NCBI GenBank assembly: GCA_016219175.1 | Contig: JACRCD010000068.1 | Span: forward strand, 1 to 64,000 | Length of the DNA stretch: 64,000 nt | DNA from: Deltaproteobacteria bacterium | GTDB lineage: Bacteria; Desulfobacterota; Desulfobulbia; Desulfobulbales; SURF-16 | Direction of reading: 5' to 3' | Shown: piece by piece, positions 4,735-58,550 of the stretch | How the letters are laid out: each line of letters begins with the position of its first letter | How positions within the stretch are numbered: position 1 is the first letter of the stretch | The notes under the pieces: generated by a model | Told to the model about the DNA's origin: nothing | What the model saw: the letters and a program-made list of their open reading frames with translations, nothing else | Database searches by the model: none | Translations under genes and position numbers: made by a program

Positions 4735-5346
4735 CTATTTTTTTACTTTCCGTTTTATTCCAATAATTCCAAGCAGAGAAGACCCCAGCAACCAAACGGC
4801 GCCCGGAATTGGAGCTGCCGTGATTTCTCCTTCATGGACGGCAATTCCATAATATGAGCTGTAGTTTTTTGTGCCATAGGTGTTCCATCCATCAAAAAAT
4901 CCGAAATGCCAGATGTTGCTTCCCGACTCTGTGCCGGAAGTGTACCAAACCGGGAGCAGATTCTGAAAAACCCCGGTATTGGCCAATGCCCCTGCCAAGT
5001 TTCCCAATTCGAAATAATACAAATGGCCCAAATCAGATCCTATAACATTATATCCAACTATCTGGGAAACAGGAGGTGTGGCCGGCAAGCGCCAGTCGTC
5101 ATACGTTTGACCGTTTATGGTGATGGCGAGATTGTCAGCCCATGACGCTTGCGTAACATAATTACCCGGGGCATTAGAGAAATCCAGCCAGGTGACATTG
5201 AGGTCAGTATCGTAAATCAACCTTCTTTCCATCCCCTCATAGGTCACGGTCCCATGTTCGACAAGCGCGGCCGAGGCCGGCAAGGAAGAGCCAAACATTA
5301 ATAAAGCTGCTGCCATCATCAATACGTATTTCTTTTTCATCATCAT
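4735..5346 (-). CDS. Exported protein with DUF1566-like domain and PEP-CTERM-like sorting tail
   Basis: The 203-residue product begins with a signal peptide (MKKKYVLMMAAALLMFGSS, cleavage near ASA-A). The middle contains LNVTWLDFSNAPGN and DDWRLPATPP, words typical of DUF1566/Lcl C-terminal-like domains. It ends with PIPGAVWLLGSSLLGIIG followed by KRKVKK, the proline-glycine, transmembrane and basic-tail layout of an exosortase-processed PEP-CTERM variant. It is therefore probably exported, cleaved by an exosortase encoded elsewhere, and released or linked to exopolysaccharide. Three ATG codons stand in tandem at the start; the first is listed. The gene lies between two direct repeats, which hints at a movable cassette. 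Confidence 0.82.
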   Translation of the reverse strand: MMMKKKYVLMMAAALLMFGSSLPASAALVEHGTVTYEGMERRLIYDTDLNVTWLDFSNAPGNYVTQASWADNLAITINGQTYDDWRLPATPPVSQIVGYNVIGSDLGHLYYFELGNLAGALANTGVFQNLLPVWYTSGTESGSNIWHFGFFDGWNTYGTKNYSSYYGIAVHEGEITAAPIPGAVWLLGSSLLGIIGIKRKVKK

Positions 5347-5487
5347 TACCCATTTCTGTTTTGTGGTGACTGGCAGGGTTCTCCTGCCGGATTGCTATCA
5401 TCATTTTCAGGTTGTGCATGGTGGGAAATAAATTCGTCACCTTTTTCCACGGAAATTATAAGTACGTATTTTTGTGCCAATATACTG

Positions 5488-21786: not shown

Positions 21787-22349
21787 ATGCCGGTAAGGTC
21801 CCGGGCCCGGTTTCGGGGGAAAGCGGTCCTGGTGAAACTTGCCGGTTGTTCTCTGTATAAATGAAGAAGGAAGCGGGGAAGTGAAAAAAGGGGGAAACAA
21901 AGATGAAAACCAGTCAACTCTACTCCATTGCAGCCCCGGCCGGGGCGCCACGGTTTTGCTCAGCAACTCCAGCTCCAGCGGCGGTTCATATCTTCCGCCC
22001 TATAGTCTTGCCACATTAAGTTTCTTTCTCACTACCCTGTAACGGTTTTTTTGTAGGGCGGGCAGACGGGTTCATCGTGGGCCCGCACGGATTGGCGGGC
22101 AATAAATCCTGCCTGACCACGGACCAAGCGTTACACGGTGTTGCTGTCATTCAAAGCAAGCAAGACAGTGTAAAACACCTGGTCAGGCTGTGGTAGCCGG
22201 AGACCAGGCGGTTCTCGCGGTTTAACCGGCGCATCTGTTGCGCGCCGCCGGATTTACCGCCGGACGAACTTTGAATACCTTGAACCGCGAAGCGGCGCTG
22301 ACGCGTCATCTTTTCAGGGCCGCGGGCGGACATGAGAGGAGGCCGGGAT
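21787..22349. other. Gene-free interval before the giant chimera gene
   Basis: No gene is visible in these 563 bp. A loose GGGCGGGCA/TGGCGGGCA palindromic repeat lies at about 22054-22110. The end holds the GAGAGGAGG ribosome binding site (22334-22342) of the chimera gene. No clear promoter hexamers were found. Confidence 0.5.
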
Positions 22350-25300
22350 ATGGAAGGCTTGAGAGCGGGAAGAATGGCAAGGGAAGGCATGGCGATCAGG
22401 ATGATTGGTGTGCTGTTGCTGCTTCAGGGGCTGATTCTCGCAGCGCCCATGGCTATGTGTCCGTGGCTTGCTGAGTCACCCCTGGCAAAAATGCTTGCCT
22501 TTCTCGGTCCCGCGGCGGCCGAGGCGGCCCCGCCCCTGGTTATCTGCGTCCCGCAGGTGACCACGGATCTTCTGGTGCCCCACGAGACGTGGCCCAACGA
22601 ATCCGCCATCCTGAAAGGGGTGGCCAAGGATACCGACGGTAATCTGGCGGGCGGCAGTTATTACTGGGAGTTCGGCGACGGGGCCAGCTCCGCGCCGCAG
22701 ACCATCGGCAACCCCGACAACCTCTCCGCCACCCATACCTACACCGATCCGGCCGGGACGCTCATTGTCGCCCGGCTGCATGTGACGGACACAGCCGGCG
22801 AGACCTCCTCCGACGACTACCGGCTCCTGGTCAAGGACAAGACCCTGGACGTGGAAGTCAACAAGGCCATCGACGACGGCCTCTGGTGGATTTACACCCA
22901 GAAGGAGACCCATGCCTCCTATCCCGGCTGGTACTGGTGGAACAACGCCTCTTACGGGAACCATTACGGCAACACCACGGCCAGCGCCGTGCAGGCCTTC
23001 GAGATCAACGGCCACCTGGAGAATGGTGACCCGAGCGAGGATCCGTATGTTGAGGCGGTCAAGGGCGGTCTCCGCTATCTCCTCTCCACCCTCGCCTCGC
23101 AGAACATGTCGGTGCAGGGCGTGGATTCCAGCGGCAACCCCGCCAACCCGGACGGCAACAACAACGGCATCGGCCTTACCTGGCCGAGTGACCATCCCAT
23201 CTACGAGCTGGGCGCGGTCATGGACGCCTTCATCGCCACGGGCACACCCGACGCCGTTTCCCCTTACGGCGGCGTGAACGTCATCGGCCGCACTTACCGG
23301 GACATCGTCCAGGATATGGTTGACATGTACGCCTGGGGTCAAGGTGACCCCGGGCATTGGTACAACGGCGGCTGGCGCTATGGTTGGAACTCGGACGCCG
23401 ACAACTCCGCCTCCCAGTGGGCGGCCATCGGCATGATCCCGGCCGAGCGGCTGTGGGGCTGTGCCGTGCCCCAGTGGGTGAAGGAGCGCAATAACGCCTA
23501 TCTGAATTACAGCTATAATTCAGCAGGCTATTTCGGCTACCAGGGCCCTAGCCCGAACAGGGCCTTCTCCACGGGCCCCAGCGGCATGGTTGAGCTGTCC
23601 TTTGCCGGCTTCAATACCTCCGACTCCCGCTGGCTGGCCTGCGAAAATTATCTGGCCGCAAATTGGAACGGTTTTCAGGGATGGCGGGACGCTTATTATT
23701 ACTCCCTCTATGCCTTATCCAAGGCCATGCGGCTCGCCCTGCCCCAGGAGGTGACCCATCTGCCCGGCGGGCTCGACTGGTACGGCGATGAAATCCGCGG
23801 CCTGGCCCGGCGGCTGGTGGACCTGCAGAACGCCAACGGCTCTTGGCCGTACGACGGCTGGCCCTACGTGGGATACAAGACAAACGCCTCCTGGAGCGTC
23901 ATCATCCTCACCAGGACGTTGTTTGAGAAACCTCCGGTGGCCGTTATAGACGCCGCCCCCAACCCCGGGGCGGTGGGACAGACCATCTCCCTTGACGGTT
24001 TTTCCTCCTACCATGTGGACCCGGCCAAGGAGATCGTGTCATACCAGTGGGACTTCGACGCCTCGGACGGGGTTGACTGGAGTCATCCGGACGCCGAGGG
24101 GCTCACCGCCTCCCACGCTTACGGCGCCCTGGGCGATTACTCCGTAACCCTGCGGGTGGTGGATAACAGCACGCCGGCGCGTTTCGACATCTCCACCCTT
24201 ACCATTCGCATCACCATTCCCCCCCATCCGCCCACGGCCGTAGTCGGCGGGCCTTATCTGGCCGCGGTGGGCGAGACCATCCAGGTGGATGGCTCGGGCT
24301 CCTATGACGTTGACGCGAGCTTCGGGGATTCCATAACCGCCTGGGATTGGGAGAGCGACTTTGTGGCGCCCTATGATTACAACGAGGCCCACGGGGTCAA
24401 GACCGTTCTGCCCGCTTTCGCGGCAGCGGGCCGCAAGGACATCATCCTGCGGGCCACGGACAACACCGCCGTGATCTTTCCGCAGTCAGGGCAGCCGAAC
24501 CTCAGCCATACGGCGTTTGGCGAGGTCATGGTTTACGAGCGCTGCATCACGGATCTTGTAGCCAGGCCCAAGGCCACCAAATGCCAGCTGACCTGGAGCC
24601 ACACCGGCGCCCCGCTCTACGAGGTGCTGCGCTCCGACAAGAACGCCAATGAATCCTTTGTCCTCATCGGCGCCACAAATTCCACCTACTCCACGTTTAT
24701 TGACTACAATGTGGTGATGAACAAGGATTACTGGTACCGGATCAGGGCCGTGACCGGTGACGAGGCCTGCATCTCTGGTCCGGCCTACGTGAAGTCCGTG
24801 GGCAGGATTGTGAACCGTCCGCCGGTGATCACGAGTACGCCGGTGACCGGGGCCCAGGAGGAGAGCGTTTATCATTATGATGTTAACGCCGCAGACCCCG
24901 AGGGTTTGGCGTTGACCTATTTTCTGGATAGCGCCCCAACCGGGATGTCCATCGCTTCGGGGACAGGTCTTATCACCTGGACCCCGGACTTTGCCCAGGT
25001 GGGGATAAACGACGTGATGGTGCGGGTGCAGGACGCCCGGGGCGCCTCGGCCACCCAGTTCTTCCAGATCCTGGTTACGCCGCGGCCCAACCAGGCGCCG
25101 GTGGTGAGTCCCGGCGGCCCCTACGGCGGGCTGACGGATGAGAGCATCGGTTTTACGGGCAGCGCGGTCGATCCCGACAATGATCCCATCGTTTCCTATT
25201 CCTGGTCCTTTGGCGACGGCGGCACGGCCACGGGCCAGAACAGCAGTCATGTCTACGCGGCCCCGGGGACTTACGTCGTGACCCTGTTTGCCACGGACAA

Positions 25301-28300
25301 CCGGGGCGGGACGGGCACGGGGGAGACTTTCTGCCTGGTCACCGTTCCCAACCGGGCTCCGGAAGCCGACGCCGGCGGACCCTACTCGGGGGAGACCGGT
25401 TCTCCGGTCACCTTTGACGGGAGCGGTTCCTATGACGCGGACGGCGACACACTGAGCTACGCCTGGGACTTCGGCGACGGCGGCAGCGGCACGGGTATGC
25501 AGACGAGCCATACCTACGCAGCCGTCGGCGACTATCAGGTAACCCTGACGGTGGACGACGGCCGGGGCGGCACGGACAGCGCCCAGGCCACCGTGACCAT
25601 CACCCCGCCCAATCAGGCCCCCGAGGCAAACTTCAACGTGCAGGGCAACCTGACGATGTGGCAGACCATCACCTTTGACGGCACTGCTTCGAGTGATCCG
25701 GAAGGGGAAGCGCTGGCCTCATGGGCCTGGGATTTCGGCGACGGGATTTCCACCACCGGCGCCATCGTCACCCATGCCTACGCCGAACCCGGCGATTACC
25801 CGGTGACCTTGACGGTCACCGATGACCGGGGCGCGGTGGGGGCGACGCAACAGACACTGGCCATCATTCACCCCACCCCCAATCACAACCCCGTGGTGGA
25901 GGCCGGGGGGCCATACAGCGGTTCGATGAACGCGGCCATTACTCTCACGGCCACGGGAGCGGATCCAGACGGTGATCCTCTCACCTATAAATGGACCTTG
26001 GACGGGCAGGAGTATGCCGAGCCCTCCATCGGGCTTACCTTTGCTACCGCCGGGACGTACACGGTGCAGCTGAGCGTTGTCGACGGCTACGGCGGGATTG
26101 CGCAGGATACGGCGCAAGTCGTCGTCTACGATCCCAATGCCCCGCTGGATGAGACCCCTCCCACGGTGGCCATCACATCGCCCGCGGCAGGGGCGAACCT
26201 TACCGGCATGGTCAACGTGACGGGCACGGTCAGCGACGACAATCTGCTTAGTTGGGTTGTCGAGGTAGCCCCGGCCGGAAGCGACCAGTGGCTGAGCATT
26301 TCCTCGGGTAACGGTCCGGTGATCAACGGCATTTTGGGCGCCCTCGATGCAAGCCTGCTTGCCGATGATTTCTACCGCCTGCGGCTGACAGCCTCCGACG
26401 GTAGGCAAACCGCCTCGGCCTGGGTTGAATGCGGGGTGACTGACCCCGTCAAACTGGGGCGATTCAGCCTCACGTACGAAGACGTGTCTTTCCCGGCCAT
26501 GGGCATGAATGTCAACGTCAAGCGCACCTATGACAGCACCCGGAAAAGCATGGGCGATTTCGGGGTCGGCTGGACCCTTGATCTCAAGACGGCTGACATC
26601 CGGGAAGACGCCAGTCACAACGTCTTCATTACCCTGCCCGACGGCCGGCGCGTGGCTTTTGCCTTCACCCCCGTCCAGCTCTCCCCCTGGTTTCCTTTTT
26701 ATGAGGCGAAGTTCACGGCGCCGCCAGGGGTTTACGATGCACTGGATTTCGTGGGCAACCACATGGTGGTCTATTCGGGAGGCGACTGGTATTTCTTCCT
26801 GGATTCCGCCGGGAAGTTCAACCCCGAGACCTACATCCTGACAACCAAGAGGGGATTGACCTATACCATTAGTGATATTCAGGGCGTCTCCCGCATTGAG
26901 GACAGGAGCGGGAACTATGTGGAAATCCTGGCTGACGGTATTTTCACAAACAGCGGGCGCAGCGTTTCCTTTGAGCGGGATGGGGATGGCAGAATCACTT
27001 CCATGAAGGATGGTGATGACGTCGAACTTGCGCGCTACACCTATGACGCCAATGGTGATCTGGTGGAGTATGCCGACCGGGAGAACAACCCGACGCGCTA
27101 CGCCTATGACACTTCTCATTATCTGCTCCGGATCCTGGATCCGGCCGGAAACAGCCCGGTAGTGAACGAATACTACCCGGACGGGCCCCTGGCCGGCCGG
27201 CTTGCCGCTCACCTGGACAGCTCCGGCAGGAGGACCACCTATGCCTACGATCTTGATAACCGTAAAGAGACGGTCACCAATGCCCTGGGTGACGCCTCAA
27301 CGTACACCTACGACGCAAAAGGCAAGGTGCTCGAGGTGCTCGATCCCTTGGGCGGCATTGCTTTGCACGCCTATGACGCCAGCGGCAACGAGCTGAGCCG
27401 CCAGGATCCGAGCGGGCGGCTCCGCGAATACACCTATGACGCCAGGGGCAACAGGCTGACGGAGACCAGCCACCCGGCTCCGGGGACTGATTTGACAACC
27501 GCTTACACATACAACTCCCTCAACCTGGTGACGGGCGTCACGCTGCCCATGGGCGACAAGATTCTCTTTTCCTACGACGGCGACGGCAACCTCACCGGAA
27601 AGGAAAAACAGGGGCCGGCCGGACAGACGGTTTATGTGGAAGAGTGGACTTACGACCCATCCGGAAATAAATTGACCCATACGAACGGCAACGGCACGGT
27701 CTGGTCTTACGGGTATAATGCTTATGGGGATAGAATCCGGGAGACGGACCCCGAGGGCGTTGTCAATAGCTACGAGTACGACAACCTCGGCCGGGCCGTG
27801 GCCCGTATTGACGGGGCCGGGAATCGCACCGATTTCCGCTACACCGGGCAGGGGATGATGTCCCAGGTTCTCCAGGATGCGGAGACCCTTTACGATATCA
27901 GCTACAACTACCTGGGCAAACCTTTGATTATGAGGGATTTCTATGTCCGCGACACCCTGTTTGCCTATGACCCGCAGGGGCGTCTGACCGAGACGACCGA
28001 TGCCTTGGGAGGAACCAGCTCGTACAGCCATGACGGGGTGGGCAACCTGCTTGCGGTTACCGACCCCAACGGCAACACAACGGGGTATGAATACGATGCG
28101 GCCGCCAGGTTGCTCGCCAGGACCGGTCCGCCCGTAAATCCGTTGGATCCATCCTCCGGCCGGCAATGGGCATTCGGTTACGACCAGGATGGGCATTTGA
28201 CCTCCAAGACCAACCCGGGCGGGGCCATCCTCTCCTACGATTACGACGGCATGGGCCGGATGGTGTCCATGCACAAACCCGAGGGGGACATCGACTACCT

Positions 28301-30044
28301 GTATGACTCAAACAGCCGTCTCCTGCAGGTGAGTGAAGACATCCCTGGTGGCCCATACGTCACGGGCTTCGGCTACAACCCCATTGGCTGGCTCTCCTCG
28401 GTTACCGATGGCGCCGGCAGACAGGTGGACTATACCTACGATCAGGCCGGCAACAGGACTGGGGTGTCGGTCCCCGGACCTGGCGGCATTGCGGTCCAGT
28501 ACACTTATGACGACGCTTCGCGGCTGGTGCAGGTCAGCGTTGCGGGCAGCTCGGTGGCGTTTACTTACGATGAGGCCGGCCGGCGCAGTTCCGTTACCTA
28601 TTCCAATGGGGTGGTCACCGATTACACTTACGACGCCATGGGACGGCTCCTGTCGGTCAGCAGCAACGGACCAGCCGGCCAGGTGGGAACCTGTCAGTAC
28701 ACCATCGATAAGGTGGGGAACCGGACAGGGGCGACCCTGGCCGACGGCTCCGTGGCGTGGACCTACGACGCGCTGAATCGGCTCACCGGTGAAAACATCG
28801 ATTCCGTTACCCTTGGCAACCACAACCTCGGCTACAGCTATGATGATGCGGGCAATCGCTTCGTGCCCGGCGGTGGGGAGGTCTACCGGTCCGACAATGG
28901 ACTGCTCCAGGATGCCAGCCATGTCTATACGGCTGACGCCACCGGCAATATGGTTGAGGTGGATGGAGGGGCGTTTGAGTATGTCTACGACAGCGAAAAC
29001 CGTTTGTCCGGCTATTATGAAGGCGGCGTCATCACCGGGCAATACGCCTACGACTCCTTGGGGCGCCGGATCAGCAGGACCGCGGGCGGGGAGACCCGTG
29101 CCTATCTCTACGACGGGCAGGAGATTCTCTGCGAGTATCGCAACGGCAGTCCCTTTGCCTACTTTATCCACAGCAACCGTATCGATGAGCCGCTCATGAC
29201 CGTGCAGGGCGGCCAGACATACTTCTATCATGCGGACGGCCTGGGCAATATTGTCGCCATAACCGATGTGGCGGGCAATGTTGTGCAGCGCTATGGCTAT
29301 GACGCCTGGGGCCGGATCATCCATAACAGCGGCAGCTTCTCCTTTGACGGCGCCTCCGGCCTGGTGAACACCTTTACCTTTACCGGCCGGGAATACGACG
29401 TGGAATCAGGGCTGTACCACTACCGGTCGAGGGCTTACGATCCCCGGCTGGGGCGCTTCCTTCAGCGCGACGGGCACCAGGGGCAGCTCCTCATCCCGCA
29501 GACGTTCAACGCCTATGCCTATGCCCTGAATCATCCCGTCGGCTATCTCGATCCATCGGGACAGACGGTCCTCATCAGTTACACGGCGTTGCTGGTCGTG
29601 CCGAGCGGCAAGGAGGTGGCGGCCTCTCTGGCCGGGTTCCTCCATGGCTGGAGCACCACTAATATCACCTTCCTGGGAAGTTACATGGAGCTGATCGGCA
29701 ATCAGTATGATCTGCAGACCATGTGGGATCTCGCCATGGCCAAGACCAAGTGGCAAATGGAGCGGGTCAAGTCCGCCCTGGGCATTGCGGAGACCCTGGC
29801 CGGCCAGGCAGGTGAGGAAGTGATCGGCGGCATACCCGGGGCCTTCAAGTCCGGGGTGACCTTCAAGGTGGGCTTCAAGATAGAGATCGGCGTGAAGCTC
29901 AAGGCCGGCGCGGGAGCCTATGAGCTGGAGTTCGAAAACGACAGTCTCACGGAGAAGGAATTCGCCCTCGAAGCGTCGGGCGGCGGTTTTGAAAACGGCG
30001 TAACCGAAGCCATGAGTTTTCTGGAGCAATTGCGGCCGCGATAA
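22350..30044 (+). CDS. Giant secreted chimera: alpha-toroid, PKD/Ig array and RHS/YD-repeat shell
   Basis: The 2564-residue protein starts at 22350, 7 bp after GGAGG. A long hydrophobic N-terminus ends near EAAPP, so export is likely. A PKD domain (about 84-160, YYWEFGDG) precedes a prenyltransferase/squalene-cyclase-like toroid (about 174-527; WWIYTQKE, NGGWRYGWNSD, LQNANGSWPYDGW). Two PKD-like domains, an Fn3-like domain (733-814), an Ig-like domain and four PKDs (912-1259) follow. The YD-repeat region (about 1369-2405) contains dozens of YDxxGR motifs and ends in the RHS core signature YHYRSRAYDPRLGRFLQRDG. The last 159 residues form a distinct tip after DPSGQ. RHS proteins often build a hollow shell around a C-terminal toxin. 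Whether this tip is toxic is unknown, and no immunity-like small gene follows. A terminator lies downstream. Confidence 0.93.
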   Translation: MEGLRAGRMAREGMAIRMIGVLLLLQGLILAAPMAMCPWLAESPLAKMLAFLGPAAAEAAPPLVICVPQVTTDLLVPHETWPNESAILKGVAKDTDGNLAGGSYYWEFGDGASSAPQTIGNPDNLSATHTYTDPAGTLIVARLHVTDTAGETSSDDYRLLVKDKTLDVEVNKAIDDGLWWIYTQKETHASYPGWYWWNNASYGNHYGNTTASAVQAFEINGHLENGDPSEDPYVEAVKGGLRYLLSTLASQNMSVQGVDSSGNPANPDGNNNGIGLTWPSDHPIYELGAVMDAFIATGTPDAVSPYGGVNVIGRTYRDIVQDMVDMYAWGQGDPGHWYNGGWRYGWNSDADNSASQWAAIGMIPAERLWGCAVPQWVKERNNAYLNYSYNSAGYFGYQGPSPNRAFSTGPSGMVELSFAGFNTSDSRWLACENYLAANWNGFQGWRDAYYYSLYALSKAMRLALPQEVTHLPGGLDWYGDEIRGLARRLVDLQNANGSWPYDGWPYVGYKTNASWSVIILTRTLFEKPPVAVIDAAPNPGAVGQTISLDGFSSYHVDPAKEIVSYQWDFDASDGVDWSHPDAEGLTASHAYGALGDYSVTLRVVDNSTPARFDISTLTIRITIPPHPPTAVVGGPYLAAVGETIQVDGSGSYDVDASFGDSITAWDWESDFVAPYDYNEAHGVKTVLPAFAAAGRKDIILRATDNTAVIFPQSGQPNLSHTAFGEVMVYERCITDLVARPKATKCQLTWSHTGAPLYEVLRSDKNANESFVLIGATNSTYSTFIDYNVVMNKDYWYRIRAVTGDEACISGPAYVKSVGRIVNRPPVITSTPVTGAQEESVYHYDVNAADPEGLALTYFLDSAPTGMSIASGTGLITWTPDFAQVGINDVMVRVQDARGASATQFFQILVTPRPNQAPVVSPGGPYGGLTDESIGFTGSAVDPDNDPIVSYSWSFGDGGTATGQNSSHVYAAPGTYVVTLFATDNRGGTGTGETFCLVTVPNRAPEADAGGPYSGETGSPVTFDGSGSYDADGDTLSYAWDFGDGGSGTGMQTSHTYAAVGDYQVTLTVDDGRGGTDSAQATVTITPPNQAPEANFNVQGNLTMWQTITFDGTASSDPEGEALASWAWDFGDGISTTGAIVTHAYAEPGDYPVTLTVTDDRGAVGATQQTLAIIHPTPNHNPVVEAGGPYSGSMNAAITLTATGADPDGDPLTYKWTLDGQEYAEPSIGLTFATAGTYTVQLSVVDGYGGIAQDTAQVVVYDPNAPLDETPPTVAITSPAAGANLTGMVNVTGTVSDDNLLSWVVEVAPAGSDQWLSISSGNGPVINGILGALDASLLADDFYRLRLTASDGRQTASAWVECGVTDPVKLGRFSLTYEDVSFPAMGMNVNVKRTYDSTRKSMGDFGVGWTLDLKTADIREDASHNVFITLPDGRRVAFAFTPVQLSPWFPFYEAKFTAPPGVYDALDFVGNHMVVYSGGDWYFFLDSAGKFNPETYILTTKRGLTYTISDIQGVSRIEDRSGNYVEILADGIFTNSGRSVSFERDGDGRITSMKDGDDVELARYTYDANGDLVEYADRENNPTRYAYDTSHYLLRILDPAGNSPVVNEYYPDGPLAGRLAAHLDSSGRRTTYAYDLDNRKETVTNALGDASTYTYDAKGKVLEVLDPLGGIALHAYDASGNELSRQDPSGRLREYTYDARGNRLTETSHPAPGTDLTTAYTYNSLNLVTGVTLPMGDKILFSYDGDGNLTGKEKQGPAGQTVYVEEWTYDPSGNKLTHTNGNGTVWSYGYNAYGDRIRETDPEGVVNSYEYDNLGRAVARIDGAGNRTDFRYTGQGMMSQVLQDAETLYDISYNYLGKPLIMRDFYVRDTLFAYDPQGRLTETTDALGGTSSYSHDGVGNLLAVTDPNGNTTGYEYDAAARLLARTGPPVNPLDPSSGRQWAFGYDQDGHLTSKTNPGGAILSYDYDGMGRMVSMHKPEGDIDYLYDSNSRLLQVSEDIPGGPYVTGFGYNPIGWLSSVTDGAGRQVDYTYDQAGNRTGVSVPGPGGIAVQYTYDDASRLVQVSVAGSSVAFTYDEAGRRSSVTYSNGVVTDYTYDAMGRLLSVSSNGPAGQVGTCQYTIDKVGNRTGATLADGSVAWTYDALNRLTGENIDSVTLGNHNLGYSYDDAGNRFVPGGGEVYRSDNGLLQDASHVYTADATGNMVEVDGGAFEYVYDSENRLSGYYEGGVITGQYAYDSLGRRISRTAGGETRAYLYDGQEILCEYRNGSPFAYFIHSNRIDEPLMTVQGGQTYFYHADGLGNIVAITDVAGNVVQRYGYDAWGRIIHNSGSFSFDGASGLVNTFTFTGREYDVESGLYHYRSRAYDPRLGRFLQRDGHQGQLLIPQTFNAYAYALNHPVGYLDPSGQTVLISYTALLVVPSGKEVAASLAGFLHGWSTTNITFLGSYMELIGNQYDLQTMWDLAMAKTKWQMERVKSALGIAETLAGQAGEEVIGGIPGAFKSGVTFKVGFKIEIGVKLKAGAGAYELEFENDSLTEKEFALEASGGGFENGVTEAMSFLEQLRPR

Positions 30045-55700: not shown

Positions 55701-55819
55701 TGCTTAGACCTCAATGTCATAACCTGCAACCGGGAGAGAGATTTAATTTTTCTCCAAAATGAGGGGGCTGAATTTTTTTCGCGGTTTTTTTTGCGAAAAT
55801 CATTCTGTCCCCGGCTTAC

Positions 55820-57069: not shown

Positions 57070-57308
57070 GATTTTACGCGCCGGACATTTTTTGGAAGCC
57101 CTCCCTCTGCTCCGGATTGTCGATGACGGCGACCATGCCGCCCTGGGTGAAACAGTAATCCACTTAACAATGGTCTGGGCGATTATGTCGGCCGACCATG
57201 CCGCCCCCGGCAATGATCACGTGCCGCGAAAGTCCTTCCTCGGGCAGGTTGGCGCTCTGCAGTGCTTCATGCCGGAAGAAACGTTTTTCAGCACTGAATG
57301 CCCGGTAA
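57070..57308 (-). pseudogene. Decayed TrkA/Kef-type NAD-binding fragment
   Basis: In one reverse frame the sequence reads FRHEALQSANLPEEGLSRHV, continuing IIAGGGMVGR, then a TAA stop, then YCFTQGGMVAVIDNPEQREG and a second stop. HVIIAGGGMVGR matches the dinucleotide-binding glycine loop of TrkA-N domains, found in Kef-type potassium exporters. VAVIDNPEQ matches the next strand. Both ends of the family domain and the membrane part are missing. The fragment is a broken remnant, not a functional gene. Confidence 0.6.
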
Positions 57309-57371
57309 AATTGATGATCTCGTAAAAAGTCACCTCGAAGCTGCCAGATGGTTAAGTAAAAAGGAGTGGTG

Positions 57372-57908
57372 CTAAAGCAGATCGTCCTGCCGGTTCAGAT
57401 AACCACGGCACTGGGGTGTCCCGCAACGGCAGGGGGTCAGGGGGGCGTCACCGCTAACCTGGTAGTCCAGCAGCAGCTCTTCGCCTGCTTCAATGGGGCG
57501 CAGACTGACAAGATGGATGCGGCCATGCCTTTTGCGGGCTATCAGGTTCGGCGCGCAACTGTGATTGATAAATTCCGCCCCGCTGCCGCCGATGGCCCCG
57601 TCTATGGCCACCCGTGGGCTGACCCAGAAGATGTAGATCCTGGGGCGCACGCCGCGCCGCCGTACTTCGTCAGGCTTGATGCGTTCCCCGGTGTATTCGA
57701 TCACCCTTCTCCGGGCGGGAATCGGCTCCATGGCGAATATCCCCCAGCGATGGATGGGCGAGGGGTGGTATGCCAGCCGGAAGGAGCAGGCCGCTTCGGC
57801 AAGGCGAGGCACTACGTCAGGCCCTGCCGGCAATACCACATCGCGCACAAAGGGGGTAAGTTTCTCGCTCATGTCAGGGGCGCGGGTGGCTGGCCATGTC
57901 TGCCGCAC
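57372..57908 (-). CDS. SET-domain protein lysine methyltransferase
   Basis: The 178-residue protein is a compact SET domain. It shows WGIFAMEPIPARRRVIEYTGE, then the NHS pseudoknot motif in EFINHSCAPN, GEELLLDYQ, and a post-SET CRCGTPQCRGYL with three cysteines (CxCx4C pattern). All catalytic elements that bind S-adenosylmethionine and a lysine substrate are present, so activity is likely. The start is a GTG at 57908; an internal ATG at 57872 is an alternative. It begins seven bases after the stop of the upstream gene, whose product has a lysine-rich glycine tail. I infer that this tail could be the substrate. Homologues occur in several bacteria, but their partners are mostly unknown. Confidence 0.9.
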   Translation of the reverse strand: MRQTWPATRAPDMSEKLTPFVRDVVLPAGPDVVPRLAEAACSFRLAYHPSPIHRWGIFAMEPIPARRRVIEYTGERIKPDEVRRRGVRPRIYIFWVSPRVAIDGAIGGSGAEFINHSCAPNLIARKRHGRIHLVSLRPIEAGEELLLDYQVSGDAPLTPCRCGTPQCRGYLNRQDDLL

Positions 57909-57914
57909 GTATCA

Positions 57915-58424
57915 TCAGATCTTGCCTCCGCCGGTCCAGCCGGGGGTTTTGCCGCCGCCCGGAGTCCATCCTTTGCCCGGGCCACTACTCTTGCCACCGG
58001 GACCGGAACCCCACATCTTGCCCCCGGCCGCATCCTTGCCGCCAGCGAGCTTGCCTCCCGCCATCTTGCCGCCGCCGAAGTCTTTCCCGGCGAATTTGCC
58101 GCCGTAACCCTTCTGCAGCGGGCTTTTGCCCCATTTCATCCCGGACGGGTTGAACGGTTCCTGGGGGTACGGATCGTACTTGTGCAGCTCCCGCAGGGTT
58201 TGCCCGTTAACGTCAACCCGGCTGTCGGCAAAGCCTAACCGCACCGCCTGGAATTGCCGGACCGCCTGCAGTGTTTTCGGGCCGGTGATGCCATCCACCG
58301 CCAGTTCTACCATTGGGCCGCCTTGATGCACAGGGACGCAATTGAGCAGGTATTGCACCACCATGACGTCCGTTGACTGGTTCTTGCCCCCGAGACCGAC
58401 CGATCCGTTGATTGTCTTCGGCAT
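57915..58424 (-). CDS. Peptidoglycan-binding-like protein with histone-like Gly-Lys tail
   Basis: The 169-residue product starts at the ATG at 58424, 7 bp after AGGAGGGG. Residues 5-85 are a peptidoglycan-binding-like helical domain (VMVVQYLLNCVPV; VDGITGPKTLQAVRQFQAV). From about 96 to the end the sequence is low-complexity and rich in glycine and lysine. I count 13 lysines in 74 residues, mostly in GGK or GK units, with few acidic residues. There is no signal peptide. The SET methyltransferase gene follows by six bases, so the two are one operon. The tail looks like a designed methylation substrate, similar to histone tails; this is inference. Confidence 0.78.
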   Translation of the reverse strand: MPKTINGSVGLGGKNQSTDVMVVQYLLNCVPVHQGGPMVELAVDGITGPKTLQAVRQFQAVRLGFADSRVDVNGQTLRELHKYDPYPQEPFNPSGMKWGKSPLQKGYGGKFAGKDFGGGKMAGGKLAGGKDAAGGKMWGSGPGGKSSGPGKGWTPGGGKTPGWTGGGKI

Positions 58425-58550
58425 AACTTCCCCTCCTGTAGATGGAATGTGCGCCGGCGGGTATTCCCGATGGCGTGTCATGCTTTAAAAATATACGAAC
58501 TCGTACTCTAAAGTCGATCAAAATATGTGCATGGCTGGAAGCGGACAATG

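Follow-up and report, generated by a model that had tools for sequence, protein, structure and literature searches.

A SET Methyltransferase Gene and a Lysine-Tail Gene Form a Candidate Writer-and-Tail Pair in Bacteria

When a bacterial SET enzyme is encoded directly behind a protein with a lysine-rich tail, is that tail its substrate? Most of what is known about bacterial SET proteins concerns effectors directed against host chromatin, and to our knowledge the native SET substrates of free-living bacteria are largely unknown. The question is raised by a locus in a 64,000-nucleotide stretch of DNA from a member of the Desulfobacterota (hereafter the window), for which an earlier note had proposed that a SET methyltransferase modifies the "histone-like" tail of the protein encoded next to it.

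The gene pair and its two products

Both genes, and all of the features described for them here, lie on the reverse strand. The first gene (57915..58424; ATG at 58424, stop at 57915) encodes a protein of 169 amino acids and is preceded by a Shine-Dalgarno-like sequence, AGGAGGGG (58430..58437). A peptidoglycan-binding-like domain at residues 1-87 (58164..58424), delimited by Pfam, alignment and structure prediction, is proposed to be the part that serves in recognition or anchoring, and a tail of 74 residues (96-169; 57918..58139), delimited by composition and the same model, is the proposed methylation substrate. The tail contains 13 lysines, eight of them in a GGK context, no arginines and few acidic residues; the domain and tail, read directly from the sequence, are as the earlier note described them.

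The second gene (57372..57872), recognized from its open reading frame, Pfam and homologues, encodes a SET methyltransferase of 166 amino acids from an ATG at 57872. The open reading frame also offers a GTG start at 57908, which would yield 178 amino acids. The distance of six bases originally given for the pair requires this GTG, whereas the ATG leaves a gap of 42 bp; because homologous proteins start just before the sequence T[AP]FVRE, the ATG appears to fit better, and the six-base spacing therefore holds only for the start that the homologues do not favor.

The SET domain (57459..57746), assigned by Pfam and by structure matches, scores 70.8 bits against PF00856 (E = 1.5e-19; curated cut-off 22.4 bits). 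Sequence and alignment place in the enzyme an NHSC motif (residues 103-106; 57555..57566), the segment ELLLDY (residues 132-137; 57462..57479) with the presumed catalytic Tyr137, and a post-SET CxCx4C metal-binding motif, CRCGTPQC (57408..57431), the three cysteines of which are invariant across the family alignment; the identification of a SET enzyme from NHSC, LLLDY and CxCx4C is thus borne out. The best matches among solved structures, both by sequence (E 7.7e-33) and by fold, are MLL/Set1 histone-lysine methyltransferases, with which the protein shares the SET fold, NHSC, the catalytic tyrosine and the post-SET motif. It differs from them in being a stand-alone protein of 166 amino acids without accessory domains, and in bearing an N-terminal motif that is tied to the partner gene (TPFVRDVVLP, residues 6-15, located by homologue alignment; 57828..57857), which is a putative docking peptide. 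The catalytic motifs are retained in nearly all partner-linked SET proteins; in L031, NQGC replaces NHSC. Two more SET genes, in tandem and without a tail gene, are present on another contig of the same genome (C81; L002:1450-1869 and 1823-2290).

The match of the folded domain in the window protein to the Pfam families PG_binding_1/3 is weak (19.9 bits against a cut-off of 23; E ~8e-4). Among ten members of the family, eight give a match to PG_binding_1, with a best E of 1.7e-9. An AlphaFold model of the tail protein depicts the domain as three helices (pLDDT ~93) and predicts the tail to be disordered (pLDDT ~42). The best PDB matches returned by Foldseek for the domain, at modest E values of 0.07-0.3, are the peptidoglycan-binding domains of 1lbu, SleB, CtpB and SleC, and 1lbu is also its top sequence match (E 2e-4). 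Relatives of the domain that lack a SET neighbor are fused to globular, often protease-like C-termini. No signal peptide was seen by eye in the tail protein of the window, which counts against its reaching peptidoglycan.

According to Pfam, the pair is flanked upstream by a PAS histidine kinase gene and downstream by genes for a YeeE-type sulfur transporter and TusA. Three dispersed repeats occur in this part of the window: a ~74-bp intergenic repeat with more than 20 copies in the genome (59927-60000), a second unit just downstream of the SET stop codon (57305-57363), and a third with many copies in congeneric genomes (55711-55817). Elsewhere the window encodes a large protein of surface or RHS type (22332-30044), 2570 amino acids long, in which PKD, bacterial Ig and RHS repeats are combined.

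Linkage of the two genes and its exceptions

A scan for this SET subtype across 84,980 bacterial and archaeal species yielded 68 loci. The closest SET proteins (57-70% identical; L030-L040) are encoded in Planctomycetota, Pseudomonadota (Rhodocyclaceae, Lysobacterales, Nevskiaceae and Burkholderiales) and Acidobacteriota, and a domain-tail gene lies immediately upstream on the same strand in 10 of these 11 loci, L039 being the exception; nine of the ten upstream genes encode a lysine-bearing C-terminus. Counting the Desulfobacterota of the window, the pair is found in at least four phyla. The intergenic gap in intact pairs ranges from about -17 to +16 bp (an apparent overlap in L040 depends on the choice of start), and gaps this short suggest co-translation.

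The converse search began with the tail gene, using a profile of its domain against 250 genomes from a single acidobacterial order, and returned a bimodal set of matches. All ten new intact loci, with domain E values of about 1e-31 or better, have a SET gene directly downstream (L143-L148, L150-L152 and L154); they include L148, where a frameshift splits the tail gene, and L152, where two tail genes precede a single SET gene. Loci cut by contig ends (L114, L119, L149, L153 and L190) were left out of this count. Among the 31 weaker homologues of the domain, which include matches at 1e-20 to 1e-25 with globular C-termini, none has a SET gene within the fetched flank. The occurrence of a tail gene without a SET gene, a possibility that the earlier note had raised against its own proposal, was seen in no intact locus among those searched. 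Searches at the level of classes or orders in Gammaproteobacteria, Burkholderiales, Planctomycetota and Pyrinomonadales added few further copies, and the pair thus appears to be widespread but rare. In an all-against-all comparison of the open reading frames flanking L030-L040 and the window, in which the same-taxon pairs L033/L034 and L038/L039 were set aside, no third gene recurred; the recurring matches were confined to the two genes and to the frames antisense to them, and the unit, as judged from these flanks, is one of two genes.

The five other genomes of the genus contain no relative of either gene. Across 97 related genomes the tail gene is absent and the SET gene has only weak, distant matches, and in 395 genomes of the phylum the tail-gene domain was detected in the window's own genome and otherwise in one weak match only. 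Given this absence from congeners and near-absence from the phylum, the pair was probably acquired by the window genome. The pair was not found in the phage records, viral contigs or plasmids searched, and in the weak plasmid matches the domain turned out to be joined to globular or protease-like regions. The search for an empty site at the locus yielded none, as same-genus homologues of the flanking kinase sit in different surroundings.

The adjacency is conserved in both directions of search, and its exceptions are SET genes that have no partner. Most of the more distant SET proteins (44-56% identical) come from Acidobacteriota. Of the 54 loci L044-L097, 29 contain a malate dehydrogenase gene, and none of these loci carries the tail gene. 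SET genes on Burkholderia-type plasmids and phage-like contigs likewise have unrelated neighbors. In the Burkholderiales loci L039 and L041-L043 the SET gene is kept and both the domain-tail gene and the N-terminal motif are missing, apparently at the chromosomal locus of L038, which is bordered by serS and, at its opposite end, by ABC-transporter genes; searches of these four whole genomes returned weak, generic homologues of the domain only. Since SET genes elsewhere adjoin unrelated genes, the link defines a subfamily and not all SET enzymes. The coupling first suggested for the window therefore extends to the closest SETs, in several phyla and from both search directions, and stops short of the SETs outside the subfamily and of the Burkholderiales branch; the unrelated neighbors named in advance as evidence against it (malate dehydrogenase, phage and plasmid genes) do occur, outside the subfamily. 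The linkage is phylogenetically clustered and, on the available sequences, is in part a matter of shared ancestry.

A motif near the N-terminus, T[AP]FVREVxLP with slight variation (FVR[ED][VI]), is present in 21 of 21 partner-linked SET proteins and in 0 of 63 unlinked ones, so that partner and motif agree in 84 of 84 rows when compared on a tree of the SET core built without the motif columns. Independent contrasts are concordant, numbering seven on all branches and three on well-supported branches (sign test p 0.25, underpowered); the cases informative for joint loss or gain are L039 and L041-L043 versus L038, and L045, the sister of L036. These data bear on the alternative that the two genes are linked and functionally independent, the low-complexity tail serving as an adhesive or matrix element and the SET enzyme acting on other cell proteins, as is presumably the case for related SETs beside malate dehydrogenase or in phages. 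The related SETs without a tail gene (malate dehydrogenase-linked Acidobacteriota, phage-like contigs, plasmids and the four Burkholderiales loci) speak for such independence, yet these tail-less SETs also lack the motif that marks every partner-linked SET, the linkage persists across four phyla while all other neighbors change, and the tails are biased toward lysine over arginine (see below). We regard functional independence as very unlikely.

The lysine content of the SET cores (2.05 versus 6.68 lysines at equal GC) was considered as a means of escaping self-methylation, an idea that was abandoned because the partner-less Burkholderiales sisters are equally lysine-poor; lysine-poor cores may reflect the ancestry of the clade.

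Several neighbors of partner-less SET genes merit separate mention. In the 29 acidobacterial loci with a lactate/malate dehydrogenase-type gene, this gene usually lies directly upstream of the motif-less SET gene (e.g., L051:3787-4833, with SET at 4890-5441), raising the question of whether dehydrogenase and SET form a second, different partnership. On two phage-like contigs the SET gene is preceded by a NADAR-like gene (L013:4457-5011, Pfam for L013; L015:3961-4605). In Burkholderiales, a gene for a DUF3592 membrane protein with a conserved basic tail, VKRGGxGGRGDxFDK, is located ~4 kb from the SET gene (L038:9244-10059, L039:5637-6569, L041:9239-10165, L042:9147-10013 and L043:9320-10279), and this basic tail may be what the SET enzyme modifies instead in loci that lack the tail gene.

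Lysine in the tails and in the folded domain

Nineteen tails fall into 12 groups, between which no likeness beyond composition is detected (z > 5 versus shuffles). Their pooled composition is 29% glycine and 11% lysine, and they contain 257 lysines to 17 arginines, compared with 41:372 in the SET cores of the same operons and 78:85 in the domains. The genomes that carry the pair are ~62% GC, and arginine is the cheaper choice there. Lysine itself, and not mere positive charge, is thus what is kept, as a lysine-modifying partner would predict; other lysine-specific uses of the tails, such as cross-linking or adhesion, may also apply. Purifying selection acts on the tail codons (dN/dS 0.15 and 0.18 in two close pairs), all 11 tail lysines are conserved between L144 and L147, and the tails vary in repeat number. 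With its tail codons under selection and its arrangement recurring in four phyla, the gene pair is not a product of chance.

The repeat units themselves are unrelated: GDPYGKG in L037 (23 lysines, no arginine), GGYGGQAAKG in L150, HKGSFPQGFKDGPGFG in L145, QGFGPAGSK in L144, an Ala/Lys-rich, H1-like tail of helical type in L035 and, outside the set of 19, ALAHEGIKR in L036. The expectation that lysine spacing would be kept is accordingly realized only in a loose form, as tail lysines are mostly 4-12 residues apart and rarely adjacent (five spacings of 1).

The description of the tail as histone-like finds no support in this comparison, because its lysines are isolated, the net charge of the tails is only about +0.01 to +0.12 per residue (+0.12 in the window), and the attached fold is peptidoglycan-binding-like, not DNA-binding; the Gly-rich window tail, with its isolated lysines, is not the dense, strongly cationic Lys/Ala tail that a histone-like protein would have. 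The same features weigh on a chromatin-like explanation, in which the lysine tail would bind DNA and the SET enzyme would tune that binding. There is precedent for prokaryotic DNA-binding proteins as targets of SET enzymes, in that cpnSET of Chlamydia pneumoniae methylates the lysine-rich, histone H1-like Hc1 (Murata et al. 2007, as summarized in the review PMC3980110) and Go1-SET acts on MC1-alpha (same review, in summary), and the H1-like tail of L035 would suit such a role. The window locus resembles the cpnSET/Hc1 case in combining a bacterial SET enzyme with a lysine-rich protein of its own cell, the methylation being presumptive here; it differs in that Hc1 is a DNA-binding nucleoid protein, whereas the window partner joins a peptidoglycan-binding-like domain to a low-charge Gly/Lys tail. 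Together with the rarity of adjacent lysines and the protease-like or other globular C-termini of SET-less relatives, this leaves a chromatin-like role highly improbable in our estimation.

Two observations argue against the tail as substrate, or as the only target. In L040, L119 and L153 the domain carries an Arg-rich, almost Lys-free C-terminus, and the SET enzyme of L040 is nevertheless intact and motif-bearing (in L119 and L153 the SET gene would fall beyond the contig end). Moreover, a lysine in the N-terminal region is as conserved as the tail lysines: it occurs within the first few residues (M-[AP]-K-x-I) of 26 of 27 listed SET-linked domains, including L040, L119 and L153, and in 7 of 31 domains without SET. 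(The L036 row in that list is a second partial match; the true start of L036 is MSLKSI.) The SET enzyme might then modify the folded domain, notably this near-invariant lysine, and the tail might have a separate function, for example in adhesion or polyanion binding, which would account for the retention of SET in L040. Against this, L037 has arginine at the N-terminal position and 23 lysines with no arginine in its tail, the lysine-over-arginine bias of unrelated tails is left unexplained, and the N-terminal lysine possibly reflects common ancestry; we consider the domain an unlikely target. The case for the tail as substrate is strengthened by the retention of lysine and avoidance of arginine in unrelated tails, and weakened by the L040 subtype.

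A proposed writer-and-tail mechanism and its relation to known systems

Taken together, the comparative evidence makes it probable that the two genes encode a dedicated pair, in which the SET enzyme docks on the folded domain and methylates lysines of the tail. The conserved peptidoglycan-binding-like domain would be the recognized part and possibly also the envelope anchor of the product. The SET enzyme, of a bacterial subfamily most like MLL/Set1, would be recruited through its flexible N-terminal T[AP]FVREVxLP segment. This segment is predicted to be disordered (pLDDT 37-50), as a docking peptide would be, and the model could not place it; from its correlation with the partner gene we infer that it docks SET onto the folded domain. 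In the Gly/Lys tail, which is predicted to be disordered and evolves quickly, the isolated lysines would then be methylated with little sequence specificity, giving a small, probably wall-associated protein with a flexible tail bearing many methyl-lysines.

Such an outcome would resemble that in HBHA, a mycobacterial surface protein whose lysine-rich C-terminal repeats (residues 159-199) are mono- and dimethylated with 20-26 methyl groups (PMC8467707). The lysine-rich C-terminal repeats are the shared feature, methylation being established for HBHA and presumed for the window tail; the repeats, the folded part and the organism group differ, and PMC8467707, as consulted here, names no SET enzyme or adjacent writer.

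Proteusin-type RiPP precursors have a folded leader domain and a hypervariable C-terminus, and their modifying enzyme is encoded next door. The window pair has the same layout of conserved folded N-terminal domain, hypervariable C-terminus and adjoining modifying enzyme, but the unit includes no protease or transporter gene, the tails are ~50-250 residues long, and there is no sign of cleavage. None of the papers found in the open literature searched describes the pair. SET enzymes and methylated lysine-rich bacterial tails are each known, and the dedicated, motif-linked two-gene unit appears to be new.

A broader reading, which we offer tentatively and at somewhat less than an even chance, is that the pair is a mobile module found in at least four phyla, in which a motif-tethered SET enzyme hypermethylates any Gly/Lys-repeat tail attached to the domain. 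If this is true, a leader domain would guide the methylation of protein lysines, and the substrates would be free to evolve. For a bacterial SET enzyme, genomics here points to a specific candidate substrate, together with a domain for its recognition and a putative docking motif. The many unrelated tails constitute a natural library for the study of SET specificity and could become a tool for putting methyl-lysines on designed tails.

One acidobacterial genome (G102) contains three copies of the SET-type domain gene, two of which (L035 and L114) end in Lys/Ala tails and the third (L119) in an Arg-rich C-terminus.
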